Shown: piece by piece, positions 35,689 to 38,331 of the stretch | How positions within the stretch are numbered: position 1 is the stretch's first letter | How the letters are laid out: each line of letters opens with the position of its first letter | Assembly (NCBI RefSeq): GCF_000758165.1 | Contig: NZ_JNUP01000001.1 | Location: 1 to 64,000, forward strand | Source of the DNA: Spirochaeta lutea | GTDB lineage: Bacteria; Spirochaetota; Spirochaetia; DSM-27196; Salinispiraceae | Reading direction: 5' to 3' | Length of the DNA stretch: 64,000 bases | Translations under genes and position numbers: made by a program | The notes under the pieces: model-generated | What the model was told of the DNA's origin: nothing | The model's database searches: none | What the model saw: only the letters and a program-made list of their open reading frames with translations

Positions 35689-35938
35689 ATCGACAGGATG
35701 TACTATTCATCCAGGTATAGCAAGGCGTTCAAATTACCCTACTCTCCATTCATATCTCTTTGGGCTGTCATGGTGTGAACTCCGAATTTTAGCAGCAGTG
35801 CTCGTAAATGGTTGTAGCATCGCGCCTAAGCGGTGCTGCTCCTGGGGCCGGAATCCTATTATCCACCCTATATCCGATGTGGGTTACTTCCGAATGCGCA
35901 GTTTTTCTACATCAATGGAAAATTTTTATTTCACAGCC
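35689..35938. other. Non-coding part of the thiN-flaB divergent region
   Basis: Together with the flaB promoter and leader this leaves 342 bases without a gene. An open frame runs through it into flaB, but its residues do not look like a protein and the flagellin starts at 36031. I see no clear further element in this part. Confidence 0.5.
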
Positions 35939-35965
35939 TAAAGAAACCATTCTATGTTCCGATAT
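35939..35965 (+). promoter_or_regulatory. Sigma-28 (FliA) flagellin promoter
   Basis: TAAA (35939-35942), exactly 15 bases, then TCCGATAT (35958-35965), against the consensus TAAA-N15-GCCGATAA. This places the start near 35972 and gives a leader of about 60 bases. Flagellins are the classic late-class FliA targets. Confidence 0.85.
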
Positions 35966-35973
35966 TCAATCTA

Positions 35974-36026
35974 AAGGAACAAGGAAGTTCCTTAAATGGG
36001 TGTTTACCCAGATCGATCAAGGAGGA
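35974..36026 (+). promoter_or_regulatory. Structured flaB leader with two CsrA-like sites
   Basis: Hairpin 1 (35974-35993) pairs AAGGAAC with GTTCCTT and shows AAGGAA in the loop; the string ACAAGGAAGT matches the CsrA consensus ACARGGAUGU at all but one base. Hairpin 2 (35997-36010) pairs TGGGT with ACCCA. The Shine-Dalgarno itself (TCAAGGAGG, 36017-36025) is a second GGA site. The layout resembles leaders of flagellin genes repressed by CsrA in Bacillus and Borrelia. The regulation is inferred. Confidence 0.55.
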
Positions 36027-36030
36027 TTGT

Positions 36031-36903
36031 ATGATCATCAATCACAACATGAGCGCTATGTTTGCCCAGCGCCAGAACAAGTTCAACAACATGAGTGTTG
36101 ATTCGAACATCGAGAAGCTATCATCAGGGCTACGGATTAACCGTGCGGGTGATGATGCATCGGGTCTTGCTGTATCCGAAAAAATGCGAGCTCAGATCCG
36201 CGGTTTGAACCAGGCTGAAAGAAACGCATCGGACGGTATTTCCTTTATTCAAACCACTGAAGGTTATCTACAGGAAACTCAAGATATTCTTCAGCGGATC
36301 CGGGAATTGGCTGTGCAATCTTCGAATGGTATCTATTCCTCAGAGGATAGGATGCAGATTCAGGTAGAGGTATCTCAGCTTGTAGACGAGATCAACCGGG
36401 TAGCATCCCATGCTCAGTTCAATGGGATGAACATTCTTACCGGTCGGTTTGCTGCTGATAACGGGACAAACGTGGTTACCGCAAGCATGTGGTTCCATAT
36501 TGGCGCAAACATGGACCAACGAGAACGTGTTTTCATTGGAACCATGACCGCCCAGGGCCTCGGACTCCAAGGAACTGGTGGTCTCCCTCACACAGCATCA
36601 TTTATCAGTATTTCGACCCCTGAAAAGGCGAATACAGTAATTGGTGTAGTGGATACAGCCTTGAAGACCGTAAGCAAACAGCGCGCAGATCTTGGTGCTT
36701 ACCAGAATCGCCTTGAACTTGCTCAGCAGGGTATTTCTATTGGTGCTGAAAATCTTCAGGCAGCTGAATCTCGTATTCGAGATGTGGATATGGCCAAGGA
36801 AATGGTTGATTTCGTGAAGAATCAAATCCTTGTACAGAGCTCCAACGCAATGCTTGCACAGGCGAACCAGAAGAATCAGAGTGTTCTTCAGCTTCTCCAG
36901 TAA
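36031..36903 (+). CDS. flaB: Flagellin, filament core protein FlaB
   Basis: Main core protein of the periplasmic flagellar filament, exported by the flagellar type III system. 290 residues, beginning [15 protein letters not shown] and continuing with [20 protein letters not shown], the conserved D0/D1 domain; the C-terminal D1/D0 helix has [20 protein letters not shown]. The middle D2/D3 region is short, as in spirochaetal FlaB. Start at ATG 36031, six bases after AAGGAGG. It is monocistronic, with its own sigma-28 promoter and a terminator. Confidence 0.98.
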
Positions 36904-36922
36904 GCAGATCAACCCAAAAAAG

Positions 36923-36949
36923 GCTTCCCACTCAGGGAAGCTTTTTTTT
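36923..36949 (+). terminator. Rho-independent terminator of flaB
   Basis: GCTTCCC and GGGAAGC form a 7-bp stem with a five-base loop, followed by eight T. It starts 20 bases after the flaB stop; the next gene begins just after it. Confidence 0.92.
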
Positions 36950-36960
36950 ATACTATCACG

Positions 36961-38331
36961 ATGAATAAACCGAAATTGCCTAACTTCATTCTGTCTTTTG
37001 CCCAAGTGTTCATACAACACGGGTTTCAATTGTTCCTGGTTGGCGGTGCTGTACGAAATATTGGACTTGGGATCACACCAAAAGACTGGGATTTTGCCAG
37101 TGATGCAGAACCGGAGGAAGTTATATCACTATTTAAACGGGTGATACCAACGGGCATATCCCATGGGACAGTCACGGTATTATACCGCTCCCACCACTTT
37201 GAGGTGACGACCTTTCGGATCGACGGGAGCTACACGGATAATCGTCGGCCAGATTCGGTAGAATTTACCAAGGACATACGGGAGGATCTTGACCGGAGAG
37301 ATTTTACCATCAATTCAATGGCCATTCAGCTTCCCGAAATCAAATTTTTTGATCCCCACAATGGTTTGAATGATCTTTCATCCAAGATTATTCGATGCGT
37401 CGGAGATCCGAATCTCCGGTTTAAAGAAGACGCCCTGCGGATCCTCCGTGCAATTCGCTTTTCATCACAATTAGGATTCACTATCGAAGCACAGACTTGG
37501 CAGGGTATGAAAAACCATAGAGATGGACTTGCTTCAGTTTCCATAGAACGCATCCGTGATGAGTTTACAAAAATAATCTTATCCGACCAAGCATCCTCGG
37601 GGGTAAGACAACTTGAAGAGATTGGGCTCTACCAGTATTTTATTCCAGAAATAAGCAAGTGTGTAGAAGCGGATTTGTTTACGCATCTCGTAAACACGGT
37701 TCAGGCGCTACCAATCACTGCCACCCTTCCCCTCCGTCTTGCTGCCTTTCTCCACGATATTGAAAAACCTACTACGGAGAGCTGTACCTCCGACGGTGCT
37801 ATCCACTACCTTGGTCATGACCAGAAAGGAGCAGAAACAGTACAGGCGATTCTCACACGCTTACGATATCCTAATCAGATCGTGGAGCGAACTCGGCGGC
37901 TAGTCCAACACCATATGTTCGAGTATACGTTAACCCACGATTCTGCTATCAGGAGACTGATTGCACGGGTTGGAAAAGATCTTATCTTCGACCTCATCCT
38001 TTTAAAACGAGCTGATATTCTAGGAAAATTCTTAAGAGTACCCAACCGAGCCCCAGCGGCTATTCTCCAAATCGATGATTTAGAAGGCCGTATTAAAGAA
38101 ATCCTTGAGGGATCCCCTCCCCTTACCGTAAAAGATCTTGCCATAAATGGAAGACAGCTGATGGAACATATTAAGGTGAAACCCGGTCCACATATTGGGC
38201 TTATCCTTGACGAATTATTAGAGACAGTACTGGCTGATCCAGCCATGAACCAGGCAGAGAAACTGCTCAGCCTAGCTAAAAATTTTTATGAAACCCGTAT
38301 CAACGGGCCTGCCCAGAAGAGTAGCGAGTAG
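36961..38331 (+). CDS. cca: tRNA nucleotidyltransferase (CCA-adding type)
   Basis: Adds or repairs the 3' CCA of tRNAs. 456 residues: N-terminal nucleotidyltransferase with LVGGAVRN and the catalytic DWDFAS, then the RNA-binding motifs RRDFTINSMAI and EDALRILRAIRF, and a C-terminal HD-like region with LAAFLHDIEKP. It fits class II CCA enzymes; a poly(A) polymerase or an A-adding form cannot be excluded by sequence alone. The three tRNAs in this window lack encoded CCA, which fits its need. It starts 11 bases after the flaB terminator, with a weak RBS. Confidence 0.85.
   Translation: MNKPKLPNFILSFAQVFIQHGFQLFLVGGAVRNIGLGITPKDWDFASDAEPEEVISLFKRVIPTGISHGTVTVLYRSHHFEVTTFRIDGSYTDNRRPDSVEFTKDIREDLDRRDFTINSMAIQLPEIKFFDPHNGLNDLSSKIIRCVGDPNLRFKEDALRILRAIRFSSQLGFTIEAQTWQGMKNHRDGLASVSIERIRDEFTKIILSDQASSGVRQLEEIGLYQYFIPEISKCVEADLFTHLVNTVQALPITATLPLRLAAFLHDIEKPTTESCTSDGAIHYLGHDQKGAETVQAILTRLRYPNQIVERTRRLVQHHMFEYTLTHDSAIRRLIARVGKDLIFDLILLKRADILGKFLRVPNRAPAAILQIDDLEGRIKEILEGSPPLTVKDLAINGRQLMEHIKVKPGPHIGLILDELLETVLADPAMNQAEKLLSLAKNFYETRINGPAQKSSE

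Follow-up and report, generated by a model that had tools for sequence, protein, structure and literature searches.

The leader of a flagellin gene, flaB, in the 64,000-nucleotide stretch of Spirochaeta lutea DNA analysed here (the window) raises two questions: whether its translation is governed by a CsrA/FliW switch, and what role falls to a small hairpin that lies between its two candidate CsrA sites. The gene (36031..36903, on the forward strand, as are all features given below) encodes a protein of 290 aa with Flagellin_N and Flagellin_C domains, and its ATG is at 36031. Upstream of it, a sigma-28-type promoter occupies 35939..35965 (TAAA at 35939-35942, N15, TCCGATAT at 35958-35965). This is followed by hairpin 1, or SL1 (35974..35993), in which a 7-bp stem (AAGGAAC/GTTCCTT) carries the hexaloop AAGGAA (35981-35986), a putative high-affinity CsrA site; as judged by reading the sequence and folding it, the loop displays CAAGGAAG in the context ACAAGGAAGT, with the motif CANGGANG. 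Hairpin 2 (35997..36010; TGGGT-GTTT-ACCCA) has a 5-bp stem and a 4-nt loop and is proposed to act as a spacer between two CsrA sites. The proposed second site, CAAGGAGG (36018..36025), is also the Shine-Dalgarno sequence, 5 nt upstream of the flaB ATG, and the ribosome-site stretch at 36017-36025 reads TCAAGGAGG. In the minimum-energy fold a weak hairpin, SL2 (36011..36036), forms round the ribosome site; in the CsrA register (36015-36028) its loop is AAGGAG and its closing pair C-G. The two GGA cores start at 35983 and 36021, giving an intersite distance of 38 nt, which falls inside the published 10-63 nt range for bridging by CsrA. An intrinsic-terminator-like hairpin with a T-run was noted by eye 3' of flaB (36923..36949). 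An earlier note on this DNA had described the promoter, the hairpin with the AAGGAA loop, the second hairpin and the CAAGGAGG ribosome site, and all of these were found where it had placed them.

Taken by itself, the fold of the window leader was only mildly unusual. The stretch 35968-36060 had a z score of -1.48, with 14 of 200 shuffles equally stable, and the stretch 35970-36036 a z score of -2.15, with 6 of 200 equally stable; hairpin 2 taken alone gave p values of 0.11 and 0.09 against shuffles. As a fold of this kind is weak evidence, comparison across species had to decide. A search of Rfam returned eight matches (E up to 5) within 35700-37000, none of them over the leader at 35939-36030.

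The window's genome (3.5 Mb in 69 contigs, 96% complete) was searched for csrA, a check that the earlier note had suggested. One match was found (8.2e-24, 85.7 bits, above the cut-off), immediately 3' of the single fliW match (2.1e-38), in the contiguous order flgL-fliW-csrA; FlgL was named from its flagellin-like domains and from gene order. The CsrA protein is 105 aa long with an extended tail and retains L4 and R44 (counted in the 105-aa translation), residues that are critical for RNA binding (PMC7652899, excerpt). CsrA matched PDB chain 5dmb_D at 2.5e-16 and FliW matched 5dmb_A at 4.5e-25. A gene for the sigma factor FliA is also present in the genome (296.5 bits against a cut-off of 189.6).

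Across the phylum, csrA seems to be tied to flagella. It was present in 332 of 392 genomes. Flagellin was detected in all 60 of the csrA-bearing genomes searched, and 41 of 59 csrA-less genomes (59 of the 60 were searched) had no flagellin match. The other 18 had a flagellin-family match, weak and partial in the case of G251; 16 of these were also without fliW and the two remaining fliW matches lay at contig ends, so that the absence of csrA looks like the result of assembly gaps. Because of these probable gaps, the csrA-less genomes were uninformative as a natural knockout, and SL1 was still found in 19 of 32 of their leaders. In family f17, the csrA-less genomes were all without flagellin, and no f17 genome appeared among the csrA-bearing matches listed.

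Leaders of flaB genes were collected from the window's genome, 40 relatives (39 of them with matches), 80 named contigs, the csrA-less genomes and a sample of the phylum. Leaders sharing their last 70 nt were counted once, which gave a set of 367 distinct leaders. Excluded were L028 (23 nt), any leader shorter than 90 nt or with an N in its last 90 nt, and an internal start (L285_-_1527); 15 loci had no detected start, and only those that had been part of an earlier, smaller set were restored (e.g. L063, L072 and L080). SL1, defined as an ANGGA hexa- or heptaloop on a stem of 4 bp or more, was observed in 267 of the 367 leaders, compared with a mean of 6 and a maximum of 11 in 50 dinucleotide shuffles. 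When the core triplet was replaced by any of six alternatives with the SL1 geometry unchanged, 1-14 of the 367 leaders scored. The closing pair was C-G in 238 of the 267. A smaller initial survey had found SL1 in 144 of 177 leaders. The rate dropped with distance, from 87 of 97 leaders at the level of the order to 77 of 105 from the named contigs, 84 of 133 from the phylum sample and 19 of 32 from the csrA-less genomes. The strict test was failed by 100 of the 367 leaders; some of these have interrupted stems, and six leaders of class C (see below) are plainly without GGA.

Circularity in the analysis of pairing was avoided by anchoring leaders on CANGGANG only, without requiring a stem, and 234 of the 367 leaders could be anchored in this way. 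The four flanking pairs, numbered 1 to 4, were standard in 97, 96, 90 and 75% of these, where independent columns would lead one to expect 62, 71, 46 and 37%. Over the four pairs, 836 of 936 cells were paired (permuted mean 504, maximum 536). Every one of the six standard pair types was seen at pair 3, and the 234 leaders contained 175 distinct arm pairs. A protein tree was available for the 223 of 367 leaders with a coding sequence of sufficient length. On this tree, the contrast of G-C with C-G at pair 3 stood at 6.0 to 0.0 (median p 0.031), with few independent contrasts, and the remaining two SL1 contrasts were not significant (medians 0.25 and 0.125). Conservation of hairpin 1 and its GGA loop among relatives was another check named in the earlier note, and it was borne out in 267 of 367 leaders, with a stem that covaries.

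At the ribosome site, CA preceded NGGAG in 307 of 364 flaB leaders (three of the 367 have no GGAG in range), versus 29 of 144 other genes from the same loci, scored over the same range; the Fisher p of 8e-43 is nominal, since the sequences are related. A first Shine-Dalgarno background of 100 of 303 was probably contaminated with flagellin ORFs, and the stricter 29 of 144 was substituted for it. The flaB ribosome site was CANGGAGG in 309 of 367 leaders, which is the CANGGANG motif of SL1 again. Pair 2 of SL2 was A-T in 92 leaders and T-A in 92, and over pairs 2-4 standard pairs filled 536 of 927 cells (permuted maximum 412); at pair 1 the observed rate equalled that expected from independent columns (83% in both cases). 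The covariation of SL2, although plain in bulk, did not reach significance for independent pairs on the protein tree, with pair 2 leaning 4.2 to 0.2 and pair 3 unclear at 2.9 to 1.8 (medians 0.125 and 1). Read from these comparisons, the leader probably combines a strong SL1 with a weak SL2, a plan that matches the one reported for Campylobacter flaA. The predicted paired-hairpin element recurs throughout the sampled phylum.

The consensus of sigma-28 (FliA) promoters is TAAA-N15-GCCGATAA. The pattern T[AC]AA-N13..17-CCGA was present in 113 of the 367 upstream stretches, compared with a mean of 14.25 and a maximum of 22 in 20 shuffles. The spacing from T[AC]AA to CCGA was 16 in 54 stretches and 17 in 55, with just 2-5 stretches at each of the other values within 10-20; measured in this way, the window promoter has a spacing of 16. 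Under a slightly looser pattern, the promoter was found in 30 of 32 class A leaders, which belong to orthologues of the window gene. Among leaders with a promoter match, the gap between CCGA and SL1 varied widely. With both a promoter match and a FliA gene in the genome, the window flaB gene is a predicted member of the sigma-28 (FliA) regulon.

Several characterized systems resemble this arrangement. In Campylobacter jejuni, flaA carries two GGA-hexaloop hairpins (CANGGANG-like) that are 21 nt apart, the second of them on the ribosome site (PMC4894983, excerpt). The likeness covers the plan of SL1 and SL2, compensatory changes and antagonism by FliW, but Campylobacter belongs to a separate phylum and a spacer hairpin goes unmentioned in the excerpted text of PMC4894983. 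The hag leader of Bacillus subtilis is similar in having two sites, one of them at the Shine-Dalgarno sequence, and FliW as the antagonist (PMC7652899 and PMC6529632, excerpts). In Borrelia burgdorferi, CsrA represses FlaB (as cited in excerpts of PMC9481697 and PMC8668096). This species differs in that sigma-28 is absent (PMC11607428, excerpt), and the Borrelia-type leaders in our set (L304-L307) have an ATGGAT or AAGGAT hexaloop hairpin with an A-T closing pair, a GGA-GGA distance of 35-41 nt and no spacer hairpin. CsrA sites near the Shine-Dalgarno sequence are described for flaB1 and flaB2 of Treponema denticola (PMC9481697, excerpt), and Leptospira CsrA binds the flaB3 and flaB4 leader RNAs in EMSA (PMC8668096, excerpt). 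These organisms share with the window the phylum and the gene order flgK-flgL-fliW-csrA, but the sites published in those excerpts are close to the start codon and are not a paired upstream hairpin. Overexpression of csrA in Leptospira interrogans raised some flaB transcripts (PMC8668096, excerpt), so the sign of the CsrA effect can differ.

As the reports on Treponema denticola, Leptospira and Borrelia are published, the CsrA switch itself is already known. What is added here is the phylum-wide paired-hairpin element together with the spacer hairpins, and searches of open-licence PMC papers turned up no description of either. Scattered reports on single species are thereby joined into one conserved RNA element, shared by the majority of flaB leaders in the spirochaete sample, and the element supplies precise pairs and distances for testing.

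From its sequence, the window leader very probably belongs to the known kind of flagellin leader that is controlled by CsrA and FliW. The earlier note had suggested that this switch may operate here, and the presence of csrA and fliW and the conserved, covarying hairpin 1 argue for it. The flaB mRNA transcribed from the sigma-28 promoter would begin with a leader some 60 nt long, counted from the predicted start. One face of a CsrA dimer would bind the strong hexaloop SL1 (CAAGGAAG) and the second face the weaker CAAGGAGG hairpin at the Shine-Dalgarno sequence, and the ribosome would be excluded. While flagellin export is ongoing, free FliW would bind CsrA and lift the block; with a backlog of flagellin in the cell, FliW would be captured, CsrA would be freed and translation would stop. 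Hairpin 2 would most likely serve as a folded spacer that reduces the intersite distance from 38 nt to about 24 nt.

Within the window's genome, only three genes, all flaB, combined both motifs with 4 bp or more of SL1 stem and an open frame, among the 21 examined of 22 pattern matches listed; the match left out overlaps another, and the pattern covers the exact CANGGA and CANGGAG motifs only. The 18 two-site matches outside flaB were rejected. Of these, 17 had an SL1 stem of at most 3 bp, and the other, L203, has a 5-bp stem and a frame that stops at once.

The distance between the two GGA cores bears on hairpin 2. It was sharply peaked in the 215 leaders with less than 35 nt between the cores (median 24, IQR 23-26), and a second group of 52 leaders had 35-83 nt. 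Hairpins with a folding energy of -3 kcal/mol or lower were present between the sites in 45 of the 52 long leaders versus 3 of the 215 short ones, and with the hairpin excised the long leaders had a median of 25 nt (IQR 20-29), next to the linear 24 nt of the short group. The reading that we place first, although we rate its chances as slightly short of even, is that hairpin 2 acts as a ruler: with the excess RNA folded away, SL1 and the ribosome site would lie at a preferred spacing for bridging by a single CsrA dimer. Folding is easier in longer spacers, which weakens the comparison of long with short leaders, and every long spacer was therefore compared with its own dinucleotide shuffles. 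The spacer fold beat these shuffles (p<=0.05) in 31 of the 52 long leaders, and so did the representatives of 12 of 21 crude clusters of spacer similarity. On the protein tree there were at least 12 changes between short leaders and long leaders with a hairpin, and seven independent pairs on supported branches stood at 5.9 to 0.0 with 1.1 undecided (median p 0.031). Eleven leaders chosen by eye, which share their ribosome-site context (L070, L077, L084, L093, L100, L106, L109, L110, L111, L223 and L292; several from Treponema records), have linear distances of 40-57 nt and all come to 19-20 nt on excision. The spacer hairpins of the three flaB members of the window's family (the window, L007 and L009) differ in sequence, and their excised distances are 24, 22 and 29 nt. 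The ruler reading also agrees with the reported limits of CsrA bridging, 10-63 nt with an optimum above 18 nt (PMC7652899, excerpt). With their range of spacer lengths and hairpins, the leaders form a natural series in which distance measurement by a CsrA dimer at two sites can be studied.

Other observations count against a ruler. By the published limits, the 38 nt of the window leader could be bridged even without compaction. Excised distances of 18-30 nt were obtained in 73% of the long leaders, which is only modestly above chance (mean 58% and maximum 73% in 100 shuffles), and the standard deviation of the excised distance, 6.5, was within the shuffled range (mean 8.1, minimum 6.2). No hairpin is present in the 35-41 nt of the four Borrelia-type leaders (L304-L307), and excision leaves 17 nt in L353, whose ribosome-site letters are those of the eleven. 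SL1 is doubtful in a few of the 52 long leaders (L171, L238 and L331), and hairpin 2 of the window alone reached only p 0.09-0.11.

A less probable, though by no means far-fetched, alternative denies hairpin 2 any function as a ruler: it would be neutral inserted sequence or, in certain lineages, an extra CsrA hairpin or the relic of one. The sequence of the spacer hairpin is not conserved, as would suit this explanation, and a GGGA loop (GACAGGGAGTC) is found in the spacer hairpin of L064, L125, L126 and L139. However, neutral insertions should not outfold their own shuffles so often, and the loop of hairpin 2 in the window is GTTT, without GGA.

Leaders with a GGGA-loop spacer hairpin (GACAGGGAGTC) comprise L064, L125, L126 and L137-L139, and such leaders may contain a third CsrA site. 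The first hairpin of L137 and L138 is without its GGA and may have been replaced by the second.

Hairpin 2 is very unlikely to gate the ribosome site directly and independently of CsrA, and the same holds for the 3' arm of hairpin 1. The TTCCTT of that arm is visibly complementary to AAGGAG in the window, but the unpaired probabilities of the Shine-Dalgarno sequence stayed almost constant when hairpin 2 or hairpin 1 was forbidden, and among relatives the arm is free to change, being mostly of the GTCC or GCC type. The suggestion in the earlier note that hairpin 2 may alter access to the ribosome site was accordingly not upheld, as the predicted probabilities were nearly identical with hairpin 2 forbidden, and the comparative pattern favours a spacer role for this hairpin. 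It is just as improbable that SL1 is merely a 5' stabilising hairpin with an incidental GGA loop: it lies a few nt from the predicted transcript start in the window, but its loop is constant (closing C-G in 238 of 267) while the stem varies, alternative core triplets of equal geometry occurred in just 1-14 of 367 leaders, and SL1 lies at widely differing distances from CCGA where a promoter was matched.

The spacer reading can be extended into a broader model, which we regard as possible but on the whole doubtful. Intersite hairpins of unrelated sequence, repeatedly gained and lost, would set a distance of about 20-26 nt for one CsrA dimer, and the flaB paralogues would be tuned by loop type (a hexaloop in classes A and B, often a heptaloop or a lost GGA in class C), so that affinity for CsrA would help to set the order and stoichiometry of flagellins in a mixed filament. 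Spirochaete filaments mix several FlaB proteins, and what sets the ratio of these proteins becomes testable by swapping leaders.

The classes A, B and C comprise 97 leaders that were assigned manually from identity and tandem order. Among the 67 leaders of classes A and B, 62 had a hexaloop, one a heptaloop and 4 no strict hairpin. Class C, the third flaB paralogue (L005, L152, L154-L157, L159-L189 and L195), had 30 leaders, with a hexaloop in 11, a heptaloop in 13 and no strict hairpin in 6. One class C family (L155, L166-L169 and L178) has a loop without GGA (CAATGAGTG and similar).

Upstream of class B flaB genes, two sigma-28-type promoters were observed face to face, one directed toward flaB and the other outward. 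For the second flaB gene this region is at about 2410-2530 of L004, corresponding to about 97,450-97,570 of contig G000:C21, and the same arrangement was seen in L397-L404, L406, L409, L410, L413 and L415. Convergent pairs were present in 14 of 20 class B genes with 420 nt of upstream sequence, a count made with no shuffle control and in which L396 (38 nt) may be false. Among the 222 leaders for which 300 nt or more of upstream sequence was available, 18 had a convergent pair, compared with 0 in 10 shuffles. In the window's genome, the sole outward ORF of at least 60 aa within 1.5 kb overlaps a gene on the same strand. The outward class B promoter could give rise to an antisense RNA to the flaB leader. 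Of 35 class B leaders, 30 had the outward site (shuffle mean 0.8), which was absent from all 32 leaders of class A and all 30 of class C; a wider scan turned up one in class A. The facing -10 boxes are mostly 65-74 nt apart, and by eye AGGG...CCCT is present near both starts. Of 54 outward sites, 25 had a CCGA at a distance of 35-110 nt behind them, compared with 6-8 for control words.
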